Under the pieces are notes generated by a model, which saw only the letters and a list, made by a program, of their open reading frames with translations, ran no database searches and was not told the DNA's origin. A DNA stretch of 64,000 bases from Tenggerimyces flavus (GTDB lineage Bacteria > Actinomycetota > Actinomycetes > Propionibacteriales > Actinopolymorphaceae): assembly GCF_016907715.1 (NCBI RefSeq), contig NZ_JAFBCM010000001.1, positions 2,232,001 through 2,296,000 of the forward strand. Reading direction: 5' to 3'. Position numbers and translations under genes: made by a program. This document shows, in pieces, positions 50,750 through 63,147 of this stretch. The first letter of the stretch is position 1. Every line of letters begins with the position of its first letter.

Positions 50750-51082
50750 AAGTTCTCCAGTCGTTGGACGACATGTTCCGTCGAAGCGCATCGACCAGCC
50801 CATACCTCGAGGCCGTGTCTGCCAAAGATCGCCTGACGCGCGACACCTCGCATCCCGCCTGGCCGCGGTGCACGTCGTCACCCATATAACCAATATGAGT
50901 TCCTCCTGCACCACGCCCAGCCGGGCGCGAGGCGCCGCGCGCCATCGCGCTACGCGCGATGACCGGCGCTATTTGCCAGACACGACCTTGCCGGATATGG
51001 CCAGCGCTGCCTCGAATCTGCCCACGAAGCGCACCGGTTGCTGCCCGGGTCGTCTCCTAGGTTCGGCCCCGGGAGGGCACAC
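50750..51082. promoter_or_regulatory. Divergent regulatory region between the TrmB-type regulator and the protease
   Basis: A dyad CATAT-N5-ATATG lies at 50883-50897 and a compact hairpin (CATCGCGC with TAC loop) at 50943-50961. Either could bind the regulator or structure the protease leader. No gene is seen in the 333 bp. Confidence 0.45.
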
Positions 51083-54000
51083 ATGAGCCGGAGTTGGGTA
51101 CGTCGCGCGGTCGTCGCGAGCGTCGCTTTCGCCATCGCCGCCAGCACGATGGTGGGCATCGCTCAGGGGGCAGGCGAGGACAAGATCCGCCCGAAGCTGC
51201 GGCAGCAGCTCGCGGCGGACGAACGCGGTGACTTCTGGGTGCGGTTCGCCGACCGCGCCGACCTGTCAGCCGCGGCGCGGACGAGCGACTGGAACGTGCG
51301 CGGCACGCTCGTCGCCCGGGCGCTCCGCGAGACCGCCGCGCAGAGCCAGGCCTCCGTACGCAAGCGCCTCGATGGCGCGGGCGTCCGCTACGAGCCGTAC
51401 TGGGCGACGAACGCGATCTTCGTCCGCGAAGGCAGCGAACGCCTCGCCGCCGAGCTCGCCGCGCGGCCCGAGGTCGACGCGCTCTACGCGCCCGTCGCGT
51501 ACGCCCTTCCGAAGAAGCTCCCCGGCAAGCAGGTCCGCGAGGTCGAGTCGGTCGAGTGGGGCATCGCGAACATCCGCGCGAACGACGTCTGGCAGCAGTA
51601 CGGCGTGACAGGTGACGGCATCACGGTCGCGAGCATCGACAGCGGCGCGCAGTACGACCACCCCGCGCTCGTCCGCCAGTACCGAGGCAACCTCGGCAAC
51701 GGGACGTTCGACCACAACTACAACTGGTTCGACGCCGCCGGCCTTTGCGCCGACGCGCCCTGCGACGAGCATGGACACGGCACCCACACGATGGGAACGA
51801 TGGTCGGCGACGACGGCGCGGGCAACCAGATCGGCGTCGCGCCGGGCGTCCGGTGGATCGCCGCGAACGGCTGCTGCCCGAGCGACGACGCGCTCATCGC
51901 ATCGGGGCAGTGGATGCTCGAGCCGACCGATCTCGCCGGCCAGCGACCGGACGCCAGCAAGCGGCCGAACATCGTCAACAACTCTTGGGGAACGACCGTC
52001 CCGTCGGACGACCCGTTCATGGAGGACGTCTCCGCGGCCTGGGCCGCGTCCGGGATCTTCGCCGTGTGGGCGAACGGAAACAACGCACCCGGCTGCCGTA
52101 CGACCGCTTCGCCGGGCAGCCGGATCATCAACTACTCGGCGGGTGCGTACGACGAGAGCAACGCGATCGCCTCGTTCTCCAGCCGCGGCTTCGGCCAGGA
52201 CGGCGAGACCAAGCCGAACCTGTCCGCGCCCGGCGTGAACGTCCGTTCCTCCTACCCTGGCAGCGGGTACGTGAGCATGGACGGGACGTCGATGGCGGCG
52301 CCGCACGTCGCCGGCGCGATCGCGCTGCTGTGGTCGGCGGCGCCCGACCTCGTCGGCGACGTGGCCGCGACCCGGGCGCTGCTGGACGGGACGGCGGTCG
52401 ACACTCCGTCCGACGAGTGCGACGGGACGCCGGCGGACAACAACGTGTTCGGCGAGGGCCGGTTGGACGCGTTGGCCTTGCTGGACGCGGCGAACGTGGC
52501 GGAGACCGGGACGCTGTCGGCGACGGTCACGAGCCTCGGCGAACCGCTCGCGGGTGCGCGGGTGCGCGTCGTCGGGCCGGTGACGCGGGAGCGTGCCACG
52601 GGACCGGACGGCCGGTACGCGCTGCCGCTGCCGGCCGGCGCCTACACGATGACCGTCTCGGCGTTCGGACACGCGACCCAGACCGCGCAGGTCCAGGTCG
52701 CGGTCGGGCAGACCACCAGCCGGACGTTCGCGCTCGAGCCCACGCCCGCGGTGAAGGTGAGCGGTCGCGTGCTCGACGGGAGCGGGCACGGGTGGCCGTT
52801 GAGCGCGCGCGTGACGGTGTCCGGCACGCCCGTCGCTCCGATCCTGACGGCCGCCACCGACGGCCGCTACAGCCTGACGCTGCCCGCCGGCGCGACCTAC
52901 ACGCTGCGGGTGGAGTCGCAGTACCCCGGCTACCGGAGCCTGGCGGAAGAGGTCGTGGTCGGCTCCAGGAACGTGACGCGCGATCTCCGTGTGCCTGTTG
53001 ACGAAACGGCCTGCGACGCGCCCGGCTACCACGTGGAGTACGACGGTGTCGGCGCCGAGTTCGACGGCGGCGCGCTGCCCTCCGGCTGGACGGTGACCGA
53101 CGCCGCCGGCACGGGTCAGGTGTGGCGCTTCGACGATCCCGGCCGAAGGTCCAACCGGACGGGAGGAAACGGCGGGTTCGCGATCCTCGACAGCTTCTAC
53201 TACTGGTCGGGTGGGCACCAGGACTCCACGCTGGTCTCGCCGGTCGCCGATCTCAGCGGGCAGTCCGCGCCGGTGCTGAGCTTCCGGCAGGACTTCGACA
53301 AGCACTTCACCGACACCGCGCAGGTCGATCTCAGCGTGGACGACGGTGCGTCGTGGTCGACTGTGCTCGACCAGACCGCGGAAGCGCTCGGCCCGCGGCA
53401 GGAGACGATCCCGATCCCGCAGGCGGCCAACAAGCCCAACGTACGCGTACGATTCCACTACGTCGGGACCTGGGACGACTGGTGGCAGGTCGACGACGTC
53501 GTGCTCGGCAAGCGACTCTGCGTACCGACCGCGGGCGGACTGGTGCTCGGTCACGTACGCGATCGCAACACCGGCTCGGCTGTCGGCGACGCGGAGGTGA
53601 AGCTCGGCGAGCAGGCCGTCCGTACCGGCGACGACGGTACGTACTGGCTGTTCGCCCCGGGCTCCTCGGCGGCGCTGGCGGCGTCCGCGCCCTCCTACAC
53701 GACGCAGTCGCGCACGACGGCGGTCGTGAGTAGCGGCGTACGGACGGTCGACTTCTCCCTCGCTGCCGGACGGCTGTCCGTCGAGCCGGGCGAGCTCTCG
53801 CTGGCCGCACGCGGTGCGCGAGAGGTGCGGCGGTCGTTCACGATCGCCAACACAGGAACGGCTCCGGTCAGCGTCGAGCTGAGCGAACGGAAGGCCGTCG
53901 GCCCGATCGCCAACGGCGCGGGCGCGAAGGTCGTCCAGATCCCCGGCACGTACTCGCCGCTGCCGTTCGCCCAGTCCCCGTTGGCGAACGGGACGACGCC

Positions 54001-55057
54001 CAAGCCCGCGGTCGCGCCGTGGACCGACGTCGCCGACTACCCGATCCGGATCATGGACAACGCGGTCGGCGAGCTGGACGGCAAGATCTACTCGGTCGGT
54101 GGCGTCGACGGCGTGGAGGTGTCGGACCGCGGGTTCGTCTACGACTCGGACGCGAAGGCGTGGTCGGCAATCGCACCCCTGCCGAGTGGACGGGAGAACG
54201 CGGCCGGCGCTTTCGTCGGCGACACGTTCTTCGTCAACGGTGGTTGGGGTCCTGACCTGCGCGCGACGAGGACGACGTTCGCCTACACGCCGCCGACGAA
54301 CACCTGGCGCCGGGTGGCGGACGCACCGATCGCCACGGCCGGCGCGGGTCGCGCCGTGCTCGACGGGAAGCTGTACGTGATCGGCGGCTGCACGAACGCG
54401 TGCGACGGCCAGGACGTGCAGGTCTACGACCCGGCAACGGACTCGTGGCGGCTCGTCGCGAGCTATCCCATGTCCACAGGTCATCCGGCCTGCGCGGCAC
54501 TCGACGGCTCGCTCTACTGTGCCGGCGGCGTGCGGCGCGGTGGGACGGTGTGGCGCAACACGTACGCGTACTCACCCGCCACCGACACCTGGACACCGCG
54601 CGCGGACCTGCCGATTCCCCTGTGGGGCATGGGTTATACGGCGGCGTACGACCAGCTGGTCGTGTCCGGTGGCATCTCGACGGGTGGTTTGACCAACGCC
54701 AGCTACGCGTACGACCCGCGGACCGACAAGTGGTCCGTCCTCCCGGCGGCGAACCGACCGCTGTACCGGGGCGGCAGCACCTGCGGCTTCTACCGCGTCG
54801 GCGGCTCGCCCGTCAGCGGTTTCCAGCCGGTGTCCGACGTGCAGCTGCTGCCGACGTACGGCGACTGCGAGCCGGTCGACGTGCCGTGGCTGGCGCTCGA
54901 CCGTACGACGATCACGCTCGCCGCGGGGGAGAAGGCCCGCGTCACTGTCACCGCCACGGCGCCAGCGCCGGGCACGTATGAGGCAGGGGTGTGGATTCGC
55001 GAGGACACGCCGTACCTCGCCCAACCGCTCGACGTCACGTTGGCGGCCACTAGGTAG
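51083..55057 (+). CDS. Secreted subtilisin-family (S8) protease with Kelch repeats
   Basis: A 1324-residue exported protease. Signal peptide at residues 1-33 (ending IAQGA); propeptide-like region to about 165. The S8 catalytic triad is complete: Asp186 in SIDSGAQ, His232 in GHGTHTMG and Ser403 in GTSMAAPH, with Asn in WANGNN for the oxyanion hole. After the catalytic domain come carboxypeptidase-regulatory-like beta domains (about 475-640), a jelly-roll/MAM-like segment (about 645-815), and Kelch-type units from about 990 to 1250 (GKLYVIGGC, NTYAYSPATDTWTPRADLP). It ends with a beta-sandwich. The ATG has GGGAGGG upstream. It likely degrades extracellular protein. Confidence 0.9.
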   Translation: MSRSWVRRAVVASVAFAIAASTMVGIAQGAGEDKIRPKLRQQLAADERGDFWVRFADRADLSAAARTSDWNVRGTLVARALRETAAQSQASVRKRLDGAGVRYEPYWATNAIFVREGSERLAAELAARPEVDALYAPVAYALPKKLPGKQVREVESVEWGIANIRANDVWQQYGVTGDGITVASIDSGAQYDHPALVRQYRGNLGNGTFDHNYNWFDAAGLCADAPCDEHGHGTHTMGTMVGDDGAGNQIGVAPGVRWIAANGCCPSDDALIASGQWMLEPTDLAGQRPDASKRPNIVNNSWGTTVPSDDPFMEDVSAAWAASGIFAVWANGNNAPGCRTTASPGSRIINYSAGAYDESNAIASFSSRGFGQDGETKPNLSAPGVNVRSSYPGSGYVSMDGTSMAAPHVAGAIALLWSAAPDLVGDVAATRALLDGTAVDTPSDECDGTPADNNVFGEGRLDALALLDAANVAETGTLSATVTSLGEPLAGARVRVVGPVTRERATGPDGRYALPLPAGAYTMTVSAFGHATQTAQVQVAVGQTTSRTFALEPTPAVKVSGRVLDGSGHGWPLSARVTVSGTPVAPILTAATDGRYSLTLPAGATYTLRVESQYPGYRSLAEEVVVGSRNVTRDLRVPVDETACDAPGYHVEYDGVGAEFDGGALPSGWTVTDAAGTGQVWRFDDPGRRSNRTGGNGGFAILDSFYYWSGGHQDSTLVSPVADLSGQSAPVLSFRQDFDKHFTDTAQVDLSVDDGASWSTVLDQTAEALGPRQETIPIPQAANKPNVRVRFHYVGTWDDWWQVDDVVLGKRLCVPTAGGLVLGHVRDRNTGSAVGDAEVKLGEQAVRTGDDGTYWLFAPGSSAALAASAPSYTTQSRTTAVVSSGVRTVDFSLAAGRLSVEPGELSLAARGAREVRRSFTIANTGTAPVSVELSERKAVGPIANGAGAKVVQIPGTYSPLPFAQSPLANGTTPKPAVAPWTDVADYPIRIMDNAVGELDGKIYSVGGVDGVEVSDRGFVYDSDAKAWSAIAPLPSGRENAAGAFVGDTFFVNGGWGPDLRATRTTFAYTPPTNTWRRVADAPIATAGAGRAVLDGKLYVIGGCTNACDGQDVQVYDPATDSWRLVASYPMSTGHPACAALDGSLYCAGGVRRGGTVWRNTYAYSPATDTWTPRADLPIPLWGMGYTAAYDQLVVSGGISTGGLTNASYAYDPRTDKWSVLPAANRPLYRGGSTCGFYRVGGSPVSGFQPVSDVQLLPTYGDCEPVDVPWLALDRTTITLAAGEKARVTVTATAPAPGTYEAGVWIREDTPYLAQPLDVTLAATR

Positions 55058-56986: not shown

Positions 56987-56992
56987 TATCGT
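56987..56992 (+). promoter_or_regulatory. Candidate leaderless -10 element, hydroxylase operon
   Basis: TATCGT, 7 nt before GTG 57000. It favours that codon over the in-frame GTG at 56991, which overlaps the hexamer. Confidence 0.45.
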
Positions 56993-56999
56993 GCGTGGT

Positions 57000-57443
57000 G
57001 TGGACCTCGTCGTGAACGGTCGGCCCGTACAGCTCGATCTGGACCCGGAGACCCCTCTTCTCTACGTGCTCCGGAACGACCTGGGGCTGATGGGCACGCG
57101 GTTCGGCTGCGGCAGCGGGTCGTGCGGCGCCTGCATGGTGCTGGTCGACGGGCATCCGATGCCGTCGTGCGACCTGCCGCTCTCCGCTGTCGACGGCAAG
57201 GCCGTGGCCACCGTCGAGGGGCTCGGCGATCCGCACCCGTTGCAGGCGGCGTTCCTGGCCGAGCAGGCCGCGCAGTGCGGGTACTGCGTCTCGGGGATCC
57301 TGGTGAACGCGGCCGCCCTGCTGGCGCGCGACCCGCATCCGACCGAGGATGCCGTACGGTCCCAGCTCGATCGCAACCTGTGCCGCTGCGGAGTGCACAA
57401 CCGCGTAGTGCGGGCGGTCCTGCGGGCGGCGGAGTCGGCATGA
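57000..57443 (+). CDS. 2Fe-2S small subunit of a molybdenum hydroxylase
   Basis: A 147-residue subunit with two 2Fe-2S domains: the plant-ferredoxin type (FGCGSGSCGACMVLVDG, with a later Cys in PSCDL) and the C-terminal helical type (QCGYCVSG and NLCRCG). It passes electrons from the Mo site in the partner subunit. Start GTG 57000 (VDLVVNGRPV) fits the family and has TATCGT 7 nt upstream. It overlaps the large-subunit gene by 4 nt. Confidence 0.9.
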   Translation: MDLVVNGRPVQLDLDPETPLLYVLRNDLGLMGTRFGCGSGSCGACMVLVDGHPMPSCDLPLSAVDGKAVATVEGLGDPHPLQAAFLAEQAAQCGYCVSGILVNAAALLARDPHPTEDAVRSQLDRNLCRCGVHNRVVRAVLRAAESA

Positions 57444-59515
57444 GCCTTCCGCGTTCGCTCGCCGCCAACCCCCGGTTGACGACCTGGCTGTCGTTCGACA
57501 CATCCGGCATCGTGTCGGTACGGGTCGGCAAGGTGGAGCTGGGCCAGGGGATCGCGACAGCCATGGCGTCGATCGCCGCATTCGAGCTCGACGTCGCGAT
57601 CGAGCGGGTGCGGATGGTGCCGGCGTCCACCTCGGCCGGGCCGAACGAGGGAACGACGGCGGGCTCGATGTCCGTCCAGGAGTCGGGCGCCTCGCTGCGA
57701 CAGGTGTGCGCGGAGGCTCGCGCGGTCCTCGTCGCCGCCGCTGCGACGAAGCTCGACGCCGACGTCTCGGTCGTCAACGGCACGTTGACGACGCCCGGCG
57801 GTGAGTCCGTCACCTACTGGGACCTCGACACCACGACGCTGCTGGACCGCGACGCCGACGGCCTCGCGCAGCCGAAGGCGCCGGAACGGGTCGCGAGCCC
57901 GGCGCGGATCGACCTCCCGGACAAGGTGTTCGGCCGACCTCGCTACGTGCATGACCTTCGGCTGCCGGACCAGCTGTACGGACGGGTCGTCCGGCTGCCG
58001 ACTGTCGGTGCGGTGTTGACGGCCGTCGACGAGTCGGTGGTGGAGTCGCTGCCGGATGTTCGCGTCGTACGGGACGGCAGCTTCCTCGGCGTCGTGGCCG
58101 CGCGGGAGGAGGTCGCCGTCAAGGCGGCCTTGCGGCTGGCCGCCGCCGCGGAGTGGGAACGGCCGGTGCCGCTGCCCGACGAAGCTGCGTTGCCCGATTG
58201 GGTACGTACCGAAGCTGCCGAATCGTCCACTGTGCATGAGGTTTCTGGCGAGTCGGACGGCGTCATCGCGGAGCATCGCGCGACGTACAGCCGGCCATAC
58301 ATCGCACACGCCTCGATCGCGCCCAGCTGCGGAGTGGCGCAGTGGACAGGCGAATCAGTCCAGGTGTGGTCGCATTCGCAAGGAGTCCACGCGTTGCGGG
58401 GCGCCATCGCGCAGGCGTTGTCGATGCCGCTGGCCGACGTGTCCGTCCAGCACGTGGAGGGCGCCGGTTGCTACGGGCACAACCCGGCCGACGACGCGGC
58501 GTTCGACGCCGTGCTGCTCGCGCGGGCGATGCCGGGCCGGCCGGTGCAGGTGGTGTGGAGCCGCGCGGACGAGTTGGGGGCGGGGCCGTTTGGTCCGGCG
58601 ATGGTCGCCGATCTCACCGCCAGCCTGGACGAGTCGGGCCGTGTGGTGAGCTGGCGGCACGACACGTTCAGCCAGGGACACACGGCCCGACCGGGCTACG
58701 CGGGAACGCCGGGTCTGTTGGCAGGCGCCTCGATCGAAGGCGGCGCGCCGTTGGTGCCGGCTTCGGACCCCGGCCTGCCGTCCGGTGGGTCGTTGCGGAA
58801 CTCGGTGCCGATCTACGACTTCCCCGTGCAGCAGGTCGTGAGCCATCGCTCGTTCGCCGTCGCGCCACGTGCATCGGCCATGCGTTCGCTCGGTGCGCAC
58901 CTGAACGTGTTCGCGATCGAGTCGTTCATGGACGAGCTGGCGCTGCGCGCCGGCACCGACCCGTTGGTGTTCCGCCTTGCCCAGTTGAGCGATCCGCGTG
59001 CCCGCGCGGTCCTCGAACGGGCGGCCGAACTCGCCTCGTGGGGCAGCTGGACGGGCGGCGACTCGACCGGTCACGGGATCGCGATGGCGCGGTACAAAGG
59101 GCTGGGCGCGTATTGCGCCGTGGTGGCCGAGGTGTCCGCGGTGGACTCCGTTCGCGTACGGCGCCTGGTGATCGTCGTGGACGTCGGGCGCGTGGTGAGC
59201 CTTGACGGAGTCGTGAACCAGCTCGAGGGCGGGGCGATCCAGGCGACGAGCTGGACCGTGCTGGAACAGGTGCGGTTCTCGCCGGAGCAGGTCACGAGCA
59301 CCGACTGGGAGACGTACCCGATCCTGCGCTTCAGCGAAGTTCCGGACGTGGCCGTTGACGTTCTGGACCACCCGGACCAGCCGAGTCTGGGAGCGGGCGA
59401 GTGTGCCCAGGGGCCGACGGCCGCGGCGATCGGCAACGCCGTACGGAACGCATTGGGAGTGTCGGTGCGAAAGTTGCCTTTGACACCAGACAACATCCTC
59501 GCCGCCCTCGAGTGA
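57440..59515 (+). CDS. Molybdopterin-binding large subunit of an isoquinoline-oxidoreductase/aldehyde-oxidase-type hydroxylase
   Basis: A 691-residue Moco-binding subunit. It resembles the IorB/nicotinate-type large subunits: VRVGKVELGQGIATAMASIAAFELDV near the N-terminus, GAGCYGHNPADDAAFDAVLLA in the middle, and GAGECAQGPTAAAIGNAV near the C-terminus containing the catalytic Glu. It lacks a Tat signal, so it is probably cytosolic. There is no FAD subunit gene, so it would be a two-subunit enzyme using an external acceptor such as a cytochrome. It likely needs XdhC (7658-8776) and the MobA-like protein. Substrate unknown. Confidence 0.85.
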   Translation: MSLPRSLAANPRLTTWLSFDTSGIVSVRVGKVELGQGIATAMASIAAFELDVAIERVRMVPASTSAGPNEGTTAGSMSVQESGASLRQVCAEARAVLVAAAATKLDADVSVVNGTLTTPGGESVTYWDLDTTTLLDRDADGLAQPKAPERVASPARIDLPDKVFGRPRYVHDLRLPDQLYGRVVRLPTVGAVLTAVDESVVESLPDVRVVRDGSFLGVVAAREEVAVKAALRLAAAAEWERPVPLPDEAALPDWVRTEAAESSTVHEVSGESDGVIAEHRATYSRPYIAHASIAPSCGVAQWTGESVQVWSHSQGVHALRGAIAQALSMPLADVSVQHVEGAGCYGHNPADDAAFDAVLLARAMPGRPVQVVWSRADELGAGPFGPAMVADLTASLDESGRVVSWRHDTFSQGHTARPGYAGTPGLLAGASIEGGAPLVPASDPGLPSGGSLRNSVPIYDFPVQQVVSHRSFAVAPRASAMRSLGAHLNVFAIESFMDELALRAGTDPLVFRLAQLSDPRARAVLERAAELASWGSWTGGDSTGHGIAMARYKGLGAYCAVVAEVSAVDSVRVRRLVIVVDVGRVVSLDGVVNQLEGGAIQATSWTVLEQVRFSPEQVTSTDWETYPILRFSEVPDVAVDVLDHPDQPSLGAGECAQGPTAAAIGNAVRNALGVSVRKLPLTPDNILAALE

Positions 59516-59675
59516 TCCACCCATATTCAGACAAGGTGATCACCGCCTGAAACGAGGCGTCATCGGTTGGCCCATTCGGTGCGCGGCTCCCAGGTTCGGC
59601 TGTTAACGTCTGCTGGTCGAGTCGGTTTTACGGGGCCTGATTTCTTTCTGAGTGAGCCTGTGGGGGGCCAACCTG

Positions 59676-61880
59676 ATGATCCACCCTGCCCAACCTCGTC
59701 GTATGCTCATGCGCCTCGTCCTGACCGCCGCGATCGTCGCGACCGGTCTCGGGGCGACGGCGGTGGCCGGCCAGACAGCCGGCCCTGGGCCCAAGAGCCA
59801 GGTCACTGGCAATCCGCTCGCGCGGGAACGGTTCGGCGACTCCGACCACCAGCTTCCCGCCAAGCTTCCGGTCAAGACACAAAAGGGCAAGCCCGCCAAG
59901 GCGTTGCCGAAGCTGCGCGGCACCGTTGCCGTACAGAAGAACCTGAAGCTGAAGGCCAAGACCACCAAGTCCGCGGTCGGCGTCACGGCGGCCACTGACA
60001 AGGTCGCCTTGCGCGCCCTCATCATCGCCTTCGATGCGAACGACCTCCACCTTCCGACCTGGAAGTCGACGCTGGACCGAGTCGGTGCCAGCTACGACGT
60101 CCTGCTCGCGAAGAACACGCCGCTGACAGCGGAGACGCTGGTCGGCGCTGACGGCGTGGGCAAGTACAACTCGATCCTGTTGACCGACGCGATGCTGCTC
60201 GACACCACCACGTGGGCCAGCGCGCTCGACGGCAACGAGTGGAACGCGCTGTGGGCGTACGAGCGCGACTACAAGGTCCGTCAGGCCGTGCTGTACGCGA
60301 GCTACGGCTCCTGGCCGGAGGACTACTGCCTGCGGCAGGGCACCGAGGGTGGCGTGGGAGACACGCCGCTGTTGGCGACCCTGACGGCTGCTGGTCAGTC
60401 CGTGTTCAGCGACCTGAAGGTAGGCGTCAAGGTCCCGATCGTTCAGTCGTGGGTCTACCGCGACACGATGCAGGCCGGTTGTGCGGCGACGCCAATCATC
60501 CAGACCGGCGCGAACGTCCTCGGCGTCACTTCGACCTCGACCGACGGCCGCGAGCGTGCCGCGCTGACGTTCTCCAACAACCAATACCTGTTGCAGTCGA
60601 ACCTGCTCGCGTACGGCCTGTTCCGCTGGGCCTCGCGCGGCCTGTTCTTCGGTGAGCAGAAGCACTACCTGATGACCGACGTCGACGACTGGTTCAACAG
60701 CTCCGACGAGCTGCTGCCCGACGGCACGTACAAGCCGGAGCCCGGTTTCCAGATGACCGGACACGACGCGTCGAACGCGAGCGAAGCGCAGATCAAGCTG
60801 CAGAAGAAGTTCCCGCTCGGCTCTGCCTTCACGATGGACATCGCCTACAACGCGGGCGACGCCGACATGACCGCGCCGAAGCAGTGCTACTCCAACGGCG
60901 GGGTCGATCAGCTGACGGCCACGACCCGTTGTGTGGCAAAGAAGTTCCGCTGGGTCAACCACACGTTGACGCACCCGAAGCTGAACGTCAGCGACTACGC
61001 GTCGACGTTCACCGAGATCAACGAGAACCTGACGCGAGGCGCCACGCTCGGTCTGCCGACGGACCGTCAGATCCTCAAGACCGGTGAGTACTCCGGACTC
61101 GGAGTGTTCCACCCGGACCCGAACAACGACATCGACCCGCCGACCGACTACGGGCTGATGGCGTCGAACCCGAACCTGCTGCAGGCAGCGAAGGACTCGG
61201 GTGTGAAGTACCTGCACGGCAACATGTCGTTCAACAGCCACAAGCCGTCCTGCTTCAACTGTGGCGTGCGGCACCCCATGGAGCCGAGCCTGTTGATCGT
61301 GCCGGACTGGCCGACCAACATCGCGTACTTCAGCACGACGCCGGACGAGGAGACGTACTTCTACAACATGTACTACGGGCCGAACGGCAAGTTCCCGTTC
61401 TTCCCGGTGAACCAGACGTACGCGCAGCTGATGAACTACGAGACCGATGTCGCCATGCAGCACGTCGCTTCGGGCTCGGTCTACACCCACACGTTCCACA
61501 TCGGCAACCTGCGTGACTACACCTACGTCTGCAACCCCACCTGCCGGACCCAGGGCAAGACCCTGTTGACGGACTGGGCCGACCAGGTGATGGCGAAGTA
61601 CACGTCGTACTACAGCGTTCCGCTGCTGTCGCCGGGCTGGACCAAGCTCGCCGACTACGTGGGCAAGCGCAACGTGCACTTCGAGACGCTCGCCGCCGGC
61701 GCGCGTGGGGTGTACGACCGGACGGCCAACACGGTGACGGTGACGTCGCCGGCGGCTGGCTCGGTGACGGTGACCGGTGGGACGACGACCGGGTTCACCA
61801 CGTACGGCGCGGAGAAGGCGTCGCTGATCACGCTGGCTGCTGGGACTCCGGTGACGTTCACTCCGAGCGTTCTGCCGTAG
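59676..61880 (+). CDS. Secreted Agd3-like (CE18-type) polysaccharide deacetylase
   Basis: A 734-residue exported protein. The signal peptide lies at residues about 1-31 (RRMLMRLVLTAAIVATGLG, AVAGQ). The central region resembles Agd3-type deacetylases acting on galactosaminogalactan: a carbohydrate-binding beta region (about 110-315), then a NodB-like barrel with the metal motif LMTDVDDWF and the His pair NHTLTHP, and a C-terminal strand-rich domain with HTFHIGN. ATG 59676 was chosen since GGGGGG lies 8 nt upstream; GTG 59652 is an alternative. The 160-bp upstream gap has a GGTGATCACC palindrome at 59535-59544 but no clear promoter. Confidence 0.75.
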   Translation: MIHPAQPRRMLMRLVLTAAIVATGLGATAVAGQTAGPGPKSQVTGNPLARERFGDSDHQLPAKLPVKTQKGKPAKALPKLRGTVAVQKNLKLKAKTTKSAVGVTAATDKVALRALIIAFDANDLHLPTWKSTLDRVGASYDVLLAKNTPLTAETLVGADGVGKYNSILLTDAMLLDTTTWASALDGNEWNALWAYERDYKVRQAVLYASYGSWPEDYCLRQGTEGGVGDTPLLATLTAAGQSVFSDLKVGVKVPIVQSWVYRDTMQAGCAATPIIQTGANVLGVTSTSTDGRERAALTFSNNQYLLQSNLLAYGLFRWASRGLFFGEQKHYLMTDVDDWFNSSDELLPDGTYKPEPGFQMTGHDASNASEAQIKLQKKFPLGSAFTMDIAYNAGDADMTAPKQCYSNGGVDQLTATTRCVAKKFRWVNHTLTHPKLNVSDYASTFTEINENLTRGATLGLPTDRQILKTGEYSGLGVFHPDPNNDIDPPTDYGLMASNPNLLQAAKDSGVKYLHGNMSFNSHKPSCFNCGVRHPMEPSLLIVPDWPTNIAYFSTTPDEETYFYNMYYGPNGKFPFFPVNQTYAQLMNYETDVAMQHVASGSVYTHTFHIGNLRDYTYVCNPTCRTQGKTLLTDWADQVMAKYTSYYSVPLLSPGWTKLADYVGKRNVHFETLAAGARGVYDRTANTVTVTSPAAGSVTVTGGTTTGFTTYGAEKASLITLAAGTPVTFTPSVLP

Positions 61881-61900
61881 CTCTCGCTGTTGGACTGGCT

Positions 61901-61937
61901 GCTGCCAGGTCTCGCCTTCGGGGCGGGACCTGGCAGC
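61901..61937. terminator. Hairpin with UUCG tetraloop
   Basis: A stem of 16 bp with one G-T pair (GCTGCCAGGTC...GACCTGGCAGC) closed by the extra-stable C(TTCG)G loop, 20 nt after the deacetylase stop and 10 nt before the next start codon. Confidence 0.8.
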
Positions 61938-61947
61938 ATTCGTCTCT

Positions 61948-63147
61948 ATGGCTGCTGGTGGACTCTCCGAGACGCGGCTCGCGCGTCTGCATTCGACTCT
62001 CTCCGGGCACGTGGAGGCCGGCCGGCTCGCCGGCGCGGTGACGTTGATCAGCCGGCGCGGCGAGGTGCATGTCGACGCGGTCGGCTCGCTGGCGCCTGGT
62101 GGGGCCGAGCCGATGCGGCGGGACTCGATCTTCCGGATCGCGTCGTTGACCAAGCCGGTAGTCGCCGTTCTCACGCTGATGCTGGCCGAGGAGTGCCTGT
62201 TCAGCCTCGACGAGCCGGTGGCTCGGCTGCTTCCGGAGCTCGCCTCTCCGCGGGTGATCGCCGCTGTGGACGGGCCGTTGGAGGAGACCGTTCCGGTGGA
62301 GCTGCCGATCACCGTTCGGGACCTGCTGACGTTCCGGAACGGGCTGGGGATGCTGTTCTCGCTGCCGCCGTCGTCGCCGCTGGGTGAGGCGACCGCGGCG
62401 CTCAGCGGCTTCGGTCCGCCGCAACACGCGCAGACGGAGACCGGCGACGAGTGGCTCGCCCGGCTCGCCGCGCTGCCGTTGATGTACCAGCCGGGATCGC
62501 GATGGCTCTACAACACCGGGCTCGAGATCCTGGGGGTGCTCCTTTCCCGGGCCGCGGGGACGCCGCTGCCGGAGCTGTTGGCGGAGCGGGTCTTCGGGCC
62601 GCTCGGGATGATCGACACCGGGTTCACCCTGCCTGCGACGTCGGTGGGGCGGCTGACGTCCGCGTACGGCGTCGCGCCGTCGGGTGAGCTGGTGGTGGAC
62701 GACCCGGCCGCGACGTCGAAGCACCTGGTGGCGCCGACCCACCCGTCCGCCGGAGCGGGCCTGCTGTCGACGATCGACGACTTCTCCACGTTCACCGAGC
62801 TCCTCCGCCACTTCGGCCGCCGCGGCGCCGACCGCCTGCTGTCGCGGCCGAGCGTGGAGGCGATGCTGTCCGACCAGCTGACGCCCGCGCAGAAGGCCGT
62901 GTCGGGCTTCTGGCCGGGGTATTTCGACAGTCGTGGCTGGGGATTCGGCCTCGCGGTGGGAACGACGAACAACGGCCACGACCGCGTCGGCCGCTACGGC
63001 TGGGACGGCGGCTCGGGCACGACCTGGTTCACCGATCCCGCCGAAGAGCTGACCGCCATCCTCTTCACCCAACGCGGCGGCTTCCCGATGGGGTCCCCGA
63101 TCTACCTCGACTTCTGGGCCTCGGTCTACGCGGCCATCGACGACTGA
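61948..63147 (+). CDS. Beta-lactamase-family (class C-type) serine hydrolase
   Basis: A 399-residue protein with the serine beta-lactamase/DD-peptidase fold: the nucleophile motif SLTK near residue 66, the YNT (YxN) motif in RWLYNTGLEIL, and a likely GG pair in the DGGSGTTW strand (third motif). No signal peptide is present, so it is probably cytosolic, in keeping with esterase-type members (EstB-like). The ATG at 61948 has no ribosome site and follows the terminator hairpin by 10 nt. Substrate unknown; beta-lactam hydrolysis is not implied. Confidence 0.85.
   Translation: MAAGGLSETRLARLHSTLSGHVEAGRLAGAVTLISRRGEVHVDAVGSLAPGGAEPMRRDSIFRIASLTKPVVAVLTLMLAEECLFSLDEPVARLLPELASPRVIAAVDGPLEETVPVELPITVRDLLTFRNGLGMLFSLPPSSPLGEATAALSGFGPPQHAQTETGDEWLARLAALPLMYQPGSRWLYNTGLEILGVLLSRAAGTPLPELLAERVFGPLGMIDTGFTLPATSVGRLTSAYGVAPSGELVVDDPAATSKHLVAPTHPSAGAGLLSTIDDFSTFTELLRHFGRRGADRLLSRPSVEAMLSDQLTPAQKAVSGFWPGYFDSRGWGFGLAVGTTNNGHDRVGRYGWDGGSGTTWFTDPAEELTAILFTQRGGFPMGSPIYLDFWASVYAAIDD

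Follow-up and report, generated by a model that had tools for sequence, protein, structure and literature searches.

Identity and layout of the encoded protein

What does a polysaccharide deacetylase resembling the fungal enzyme Agd3 do in an actinomycete, and on whose polymer would it act? The question is raised by an open reading frame in a 64-kb stretch of DNA (the window; positions 2232001-2296000 of an 8.52 Mb genome on one contig), which we confirmed as a real gene (Table 1). Counted from an alternative in-frame GTG at 59652, upstream of the ATG at 59676, its frame has a third-position GC of 0.91, against 0.57 at position 1 and 0.47 at position 2, and its coding score is second in the window to that of a subtilase frame. 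A long minus-strand ORF (59628-62312) overlaps the gene.

Table 1. Features of the deacetylase gene and its product, in window coordinates
Feature	Position	Strand	Basis
CE18 (Agd3-type) polysaccharide deacetylase gene, orphan paralog	59676..61880	+	ATG start, 734 aa
Putative promoter or 5' UTR	59585..59675	+	similarity patches shared with the segment preceding the operon paralog
Putative signal peptide, residues 1-31 (RR...hydrophobic...AVA)	59676..59768	+	read by eye
CBM87-like domain, residues 112-313	60009..60614	+	Pfam and Agd3 alignment
CE18 catalytic (beta/alpha)7 domain, residues 314-665	60615..61670	+	Pfam, model and fold match; borders approximate
C-terminal beta-strand domain, residues 666-734	61671..61877	+	model secondary structure; Agd3 alignment
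CM1: D337 (catalytic base) and D338 (metal)	60684..60689	+	aligned to Agd3 D377/D378; roles by homology
CM2: HTLTH, H429 and H433 (metal)	60960..60974	+	aligned to Agd3 H510/H514; roles by homology
K468, end of strand beta4; proposed stand-in for the CM3 arginine	61077..61079	+	alignment, model
D544, where Agd3 has R613 (CM3)	61305..61307	+	alignments
CM4: H608 (catalytic acid)	61497..61499	+	aligned to Agd3 H668 ('FHQANLRN'); role by homology

The protein has the three-part layout of Agd3: a CBM87 domain, a CE18 domain and a C-terminal beta domain. Two Pfam families matched above cut-off, Agd3_CE (57.4 bits, cut-off 27.6; best stretch residues 420-665) and CBM87_Agd3 (48.7 bits, cut-off 27.6). 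The CE4 family Polysacc_deac_1 gave no match at E up to 1, and no NCBIfam model matched the window protein (E up to 1) or its operon paralog, described below (E up to 0.001). Agd3 was the sole PDB chain matched by a single-sequence search at E up to 1 (1e-14) and led a search with a 56-row profile (6nwz, 1.5e-48), followed by human NDST1 (4.5e-5). For an AlphaFold2 model from the 56-row alignment (pLDDT 89.2, pTM 0.87), the top VIA-align 2 match was Agd3 6nwz (Z 34.5, 2.7 Å over 562 residues, 23% identity) and the runner-up human NDST1 (Z 25.4). Lower down, at Z ~13-16, came polysaccharide deacetylases and CE4 barrels interspersed with GH57 enzymes and further barrel folds. Foldseek returned the same top two. 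The first-pass annotation had called the protein an Agd3-like deacetylase and proposed a structural comparison with Agd3; sequence families, profile and fold all bear this out. It had also taken the protein to be secreted, and the N-terminus, read by eye, agrees: the deacetylase is apparently exported behind a signal peptide, within a stretch (residues 1-67) that is disordered in the model, with pLDDT below 50.

The likeness to Agd3 of Aspergillus fumigatus (CE18 with CBM87; 6NWZ; PMC7229062) extends from layout and fold to single residues. Those of motifs CM1, CM2 and CM4 are shared, and a manual count on the alignment pairs W259 of the CBM87-like domain with the aromatic W292 of Agd3, and Y304 with W344. 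The two proteins differ in that Agd3 is fungal and ours bacterial, with a gene outside its operon, and in that Agd3 Arg613 is replaced by Asp544. The N-deacetylase domain of NDST1 (PMC10864358) differs in belonging to a bifunctional N-deacetylase/N-sulfotransferase that acts on heparan sulfate, and has Val at the position of K468. The CE4 (NodB) enzymes Bc1960 (4l1g; Z 13.4) and SlCE4 (2cc0; Z 13.7) have the barrel and the metal triad in common with the window protein. Canonical CE4 enzymes also carry a basic residue after beta4; the window protein departs from them in having Lys for Arg, a CBM87 domain and no CE4 Pfam match.

The CE18 traits present are thus the match to the Agd3 catalytic domain, the CM1 Asp-Asp pair, the CM2 HxxxH, the CM4 His and the three-domain CBM87 fold; the one absent is the CM3 base-coordinating arginine. 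CM3 is retained in most, not all, of the bacterial Agd3 homologs described in PMC7229062, and because homologs without it were already counted there, we did not take its absence to exclude CE18.

An implied surprise of the first-pass annotation, the actinomycete host, does not survive comparison with the literature. Bacterial Agd3 homologs in exopolysaccharide operons, of the same family as the window protein, were reported in 2020, actinobacterial ones among them (Bamford et al. 2020, PMC7229062), and finding one here is therefore no novelty. In the main text of that study we found no account of a Lys with CM3 loss, of a dehydrogenase-bearing operon type or of an orphan paralog. The earlier reading is supported in part, its core observation confirmed. 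Our additions are that the gene is an orphan paralog showing signs of constraint, and that an active-site exchange without exceptions sets its branch apart from Agd3 at CM3.

A strict exchange between two active-site positions

The window protein and its operon paralog were aligned with 90 proteins encoded at loci L014-L100, giving 92 rows. This sample is skewed toward the nearer relatives of the window protein (best 80 of 278). D337, D338, H429, H433 and H608 are invariant in 92/92 rows; their roles are assigned by homology to Agd3 D377, D378, H510, H514 and H668 (PMC7229062). Both metal motifs are far beyond chance. They had been pointed out earlier as DVDD and HTLTH, and they stand at residues 334-340 (TDVDDWF) and 429-433, with the qualification that the functional pair is D337-D338, to which the first Asp, D335, does not belong. 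Loss of the metal ligands, named earlier as the observation that would speak against the assignment, was not found: D338, H429 and H433 all align to Agd3 ligands.

The remaining motif is where the family divides. In Agd3, the CM3 residue R613 coordinates the base, and activity depends on it (PMC7229062). In the 92 rows of this skewed sample, 55 proteins have Lys468/Asp544, 2 have Lys468/Cys544, 33 have Val468/Arg544 and 2 have Ile468/Arg544. There is no exception: all 57 proteins without Arg544 (Lys type) have Lys468, and all 35 with Arg544 (Arg type) have Val or Ile. Among the rows excluded from the count (L011, L012, L013 and L101-L105), L012 reads by eye as Lys/Cys, and L011 and L013 as Ile or Val/Arg. 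Between residues 105 and 700, the sparsely gapped columns include just four at which the types have no residue in common, namely 269, 468, 472 and 544; position 269 is Cys and 472 is Tyr in 57/57 Lys-type rows (best 80 of 278). C218 (60327-60329), like C269 (60480-60482), is Cys in every Lys-type row; of the remaining 35 rows a single one has Cys at 218, and 269 is never Cys. The two cysteines thus mark the Lys subfamily and probably form a disulfide in the CBM87 domain.

In the model, K468 closes strand beta4 (463-468) and D544 lies inside beta6 (540-546); a model of the Arg-type relative L076 (pLDDT 89.0) has the equivalent strands at 436-442 and 510-516. The base-activating Arg sits in motif 3 in CE4 and after beta6 in Agd3 (PMC7229062, PMC12022489, PMC10967932), and the proline pair of Agd3 is the CE4 motif-3 pair, with the Arg supplied from elsewhere (PMC10967932). 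Profile alignment pairs K468 at high certainty with a Val of NDST1, and at low certainty with the Ile that immediately precedes the Agd3 proline pair; in a single-sequence alignment it faces a gap in Agd3, and the alignment of K468 to Agd3 is weak. From the metal His to the motif-3 (RPPY) Arg there are 34 residues in the genome's own CE4 protein, and from H433 to K468 there are 35. This likeness is loose evidence, since the spacing varies in both types: among Lys-type rows it is 35 in 54/57, 45 in two and 31 in one (best 80 of 278), and among Arg-type rows it runs from 35 to 57. Judged by strand position, the proline pair and the spacing together, K468 probably occupies the slot of the CE4 motif-3 Arg, and it may be a relocated helper residue that replaces the CM3 Arg.

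The base-activating residue is known to differ between families, namely the CE4/PNAG type, CE18, CE21 (His) and CE26 (PMC13254593, PMC12022489, PMC10967932). Within CE18, we found no move of this residue to Lys in the literature as far as main texts go; in the main text of PMC7229062 the word lysine is absent and a Lys accompanying CM3 loss is not described.

NDST1 has Val and Agd3 has Arg, which suggests that the Lys type is derived. In a quick tree built without columns 468 and 544, the Lys type forms one side of one branch, whose support rises from 25 to 100 when the long Thermus row L018 is left out. As far as such trees show, the Lys type arose once, and the exchange may have been a single evolutionary event. 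A single change suffices, so the pattern does not amount to repeated covariation; shared descent of unrelated changes at 468 and 544 is possible.

An orphan copy with a paralog in an exopolysaccharide operon

A second match in the genome, at 7.57 Mb, is a paralog 78% identical over its full length. The two copies have a pairwise dN/dS of 0.31 and a dS of 0.46 (Nei-Gojobori), and this ratio suggests that both are under constraint and maintained. The paralog heads a run of eight same-strand genes (L007 17985-7204) in the order deacetylase, PelF-type GT4, 527-aa membrane protein, NTP-transferase, epimerase, GH114, nucleotide-sugar dehydrogenase and SDR. PelF scores 156 bits with NCBIfam NF038011 (cut-off 100), a Pel-operon trait that holds for the paralog operon only; the dehydrogenase scores above cut-off only with the broad NCBIfam model TIGR03026. 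Pfam and NCBIfam annotation labelled none of the eight genes PelD or PelE.

The 527-aa membrane protein (L007 12447-14030) was considered as PelG, an identity that neither Pfam nor NCBIfam profiles bore out: neither it nor 7 homologs encoded at plasmid loci (19-25% identity) had a Pfam match better than E 0.15, and it had no NCBIfam match. Multi-pass by eye and adjoining PelF, it belongs to an unnamed family and may substitute for PelG.

Around the window copy the setting is different. By tblastn at 1e-5, 0/7 operon partners were found in the 64-kb window and 9 kb beyond it; the upstream neighbours are a xanthine-dehydrogenase-like pair and the downstream neighbour a beta-lactamase-fold hydrolase. 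The window gene is an orphan second copy outside the exopolysaccharide operon, a position that may leave room for a changed substrate or a changed expression time.

A local DNA alignment of the two copies (82% identical) starts 47 bp ahead of the ATG and ends 9 bp after the stop codon, and patches of upstream similarity, read by eye, span ~90 bp. Within this 5' segment, TGTTAACGTC lies at 59601-59610. We dropped it as a shared regulatory site because each of two patterns tried occurs at one place in the genome (one at the operon copy, the other at the window copy) and because GTTAAC occurs within 450 bp upstream or in the first 60 bp of only 5/90 other plus-strand rows.

Relatives and two operon types

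A single-sequence scan of genome contigs with the window protein gave no confirmed relative. With a 10-row alignment as the query, the scan recovered 278 relatives, and we carried forward the best 80 (79 loci). These 80 are mostly from Micromonosporaceae, Streptosporangiaceae, Pseudonocardiaceae and Streptomyces, and also from Deinococcota, Burkholderia, Nitrosospira and MAGs. Thirteen plasmid records matched, their hosts including Deinococcus, Thermus, Burkholderia, Streptomyces and Kocuria, and no phage record did. The gene occurs in 1/293 genomes of its own order (the genome studied here), in 4/394 of its own class, again including this genome, and in 36/200 of the family of genome G382, two of which have several matches (three and two). 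That last figure speaks against the idea of a rare or newly imported gene; the distribution is patchy rather than rare, which is compatible with horizontal transfer or loss.

Several genomes carry more than one Agd3-type gene. Tandem or neighbouring pairs occur in Deinococcus aquaticus (L016 11710-16275), Symbioplanes lichenis (L048 4818-9944) and Kibdelosporangium banguiense (L064 7950-12170), and genome G708 has three dispersed copies.

The two active-site types go with different neighbourhoods. In the sample biased toward nearer relatives (best 80 of 278), a PelF homolog lies in the fetched flanks of 54/54 Lys-type loci (our operon included) and 25/34 Arg-type loci, a nucleotide-sugar dehydrogenase like that of our operon in 46/54 Lys-type versus 0/34 Arg-type loci, and all seven partners in 41/54 versus 0/34. 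Partners were counted anywhere in the flank, on any strand and in any order (the PelF match of L057 is 7.7 kb upstream), and the dehydrogenase counts come from tblastn at 1e-5 with the own-genome query on flanks of which some are short (e.g. L072, L083, L100). The Lys-branch operon can perhaps make a uronic-acid nucleotide sugar. GH114 genes, sought by tblastn with the own-genome query, appeared in 44/54 Lys-type and 2/34 Arg-type loci (best 80 of 278), a contrast that we discarded: the annotated Arg-type records L015, L016, L017, L020 and L021 do encode endo-alpha-1,4-polygalactosaminidases, so that this query undercounts Arg-type loci.

Substrate, mechanism and alternative readings

The reading that we strongly favour is that the window gene encodes a secreted, metal-dependent CE18 N-deacetylase, a second copy outside the operon, which deacetylates the organism's own N-acetylhexosamine polymer and in which K468 is a possible stand-in for the CM3 Arg. 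Acetyl groups would be removed outside the cell, most likely from an own polymer that is probably GalNAc-based, which would thereby become cationic and adhesive. By homology, D337 would activate a water bound by the metal on D338, H429 and H433, and H608 would protonate the leaving amine; K468 may substitute for the base-positioning R613 of Agd3, which the Lys subfamily has replaced by Asp.

The first-pass annotation had left open whether the polymer is the bacterium's own or fungal. The genes around the paralog and most relatives argue for the former: with PelF at 54/54 Lys-type and 25/34 Arg-type loci (best 80 of 278), the substrate is probably the bacterium's own polymer, and the fungal alternative is disfavoured. 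PelF is described as polymerising UDP-GalNAc (PMC7112168), which makes a GalNAc-based polymer the default and more likely than poly-GlcNAc. PelA (CE21) and Bacillus PelADA (CE26) deacetylate alpha-1,4-GalNAc polymers in pel systems; a distinct base-activating residue is proposed for each (His in MT1 and Arg458, respectively), and their authors place them in separate CE families (PMC12022489, PMC13254593). The window protein matches Agd3 instead, PelA 9cgy being a weaker fold match to its model (Z 12.3, rmsd 11.0).

An enzyme used for offence or nutrition, acting on a polymer of foreign origin (for instance galactosaminogalactan made by fungi in the soil), would account for an orphan that seems to be exported and stands apart from the operon, and the fungal CE18 enzyme does act on galactosaminogalactan (PMC7229062). 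We consider it improbable, given that the orphan still shares 78% identity with the operon copy along the full length, keeps the subfamily residues 468, 472 and 544, and has neither of the two GH114 genes found in the genome (one in the operon, one elsewhere) nearby. Less probable still is a pseudoenzyme, that is, a Lys branch that is inactive or only binds for want of the CM3 Arg. R613 is integral to Agd3 activity (PMC7229062) and its equivalent is missing in 57/92 rows (best 80 of 278), yet a branch without activity would be expected to lose its metal ligands, base and acid, which 57/57 Lys-type rows retain along with a strictly kept Lys468; PelA, moreover, is active without a CM3 Arg (PMC12022489).

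A further alternative touches only the part played by K468 and leaves the favoured reading otherwise intact: the lysine may be non-catalytic, a substrate contact for a different polymer that was fixed with D544 by descent in one clade. We regard this as possible, though rather unlikely. The trees need one change only, and the dehydrogenase of our operon's own type is confined to Lys-type loci (46/54 against 0/34; best 80 of 278), suggesting a different, perhaps uronic-acid-bearing polymer. Set against this are the small number of type-separating positions (269, 468, 472 and 544 among those with few gaps between 105 and 700) and the location of the two residues, K468 at the end of beta4 and D544 in beta6, given that the base-activating Arg is placed in motif 3 of CE4 and after beta6 in Agd3.

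If the lysine of the favoured reading does take over from the arginine, the family holds a natural double swap, in which the base-activating residue can move between strands inside one family. A rule that a CM3 Arg is required would drop 57/92 sampled proteins, in a sample biased toward nearer relatives (best 80 of 278). The operon suggests that many filamentous actinomycetes make a matrix polymer, cationic or zwitterionic, of which we found no description. Speculatively, and with more doubt than confidence, a large actinomycete/Thermaceae branch of CE18 may have returned the base-activating residue from the beta6 Arg to the CE4 place after beta4, as Lys, in the service of a dehydrogenase-bearing operon that makes an undescribed uronic-acid-bearing, partly deacetylated (zwitterionic) surface polymer.

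Other genes

Elsewhere in the genome, the sole Polysacc_deac_1 match at E up to 0.001 (L108 1072-3345) lies at 6.50 Mb. Its frame continues, by eye, into a GT2-like glycosyltransferase, making a CE4-glycosyltransferase fusion that perhaps serves a second deacetylated-polymer system. Within the window, the subtilase frame at 51038-55057 encodes a 1339-aa S8 enzyme with carboxypeptidase-regulatory-like domains and kelch repeats, secreted-looking by eye. The xanthine-dehydrogenase-type pair at 56991-59515 comprises a small subunit of the 2Fe-2S type and a large, molybdopterin-type one, and the ORF-finder frame of the latter begins inside the small-subunit gene. Beyond the window, L010 15934-17538 encodes a TROVE/Ro60-like protein with a vWA domain.
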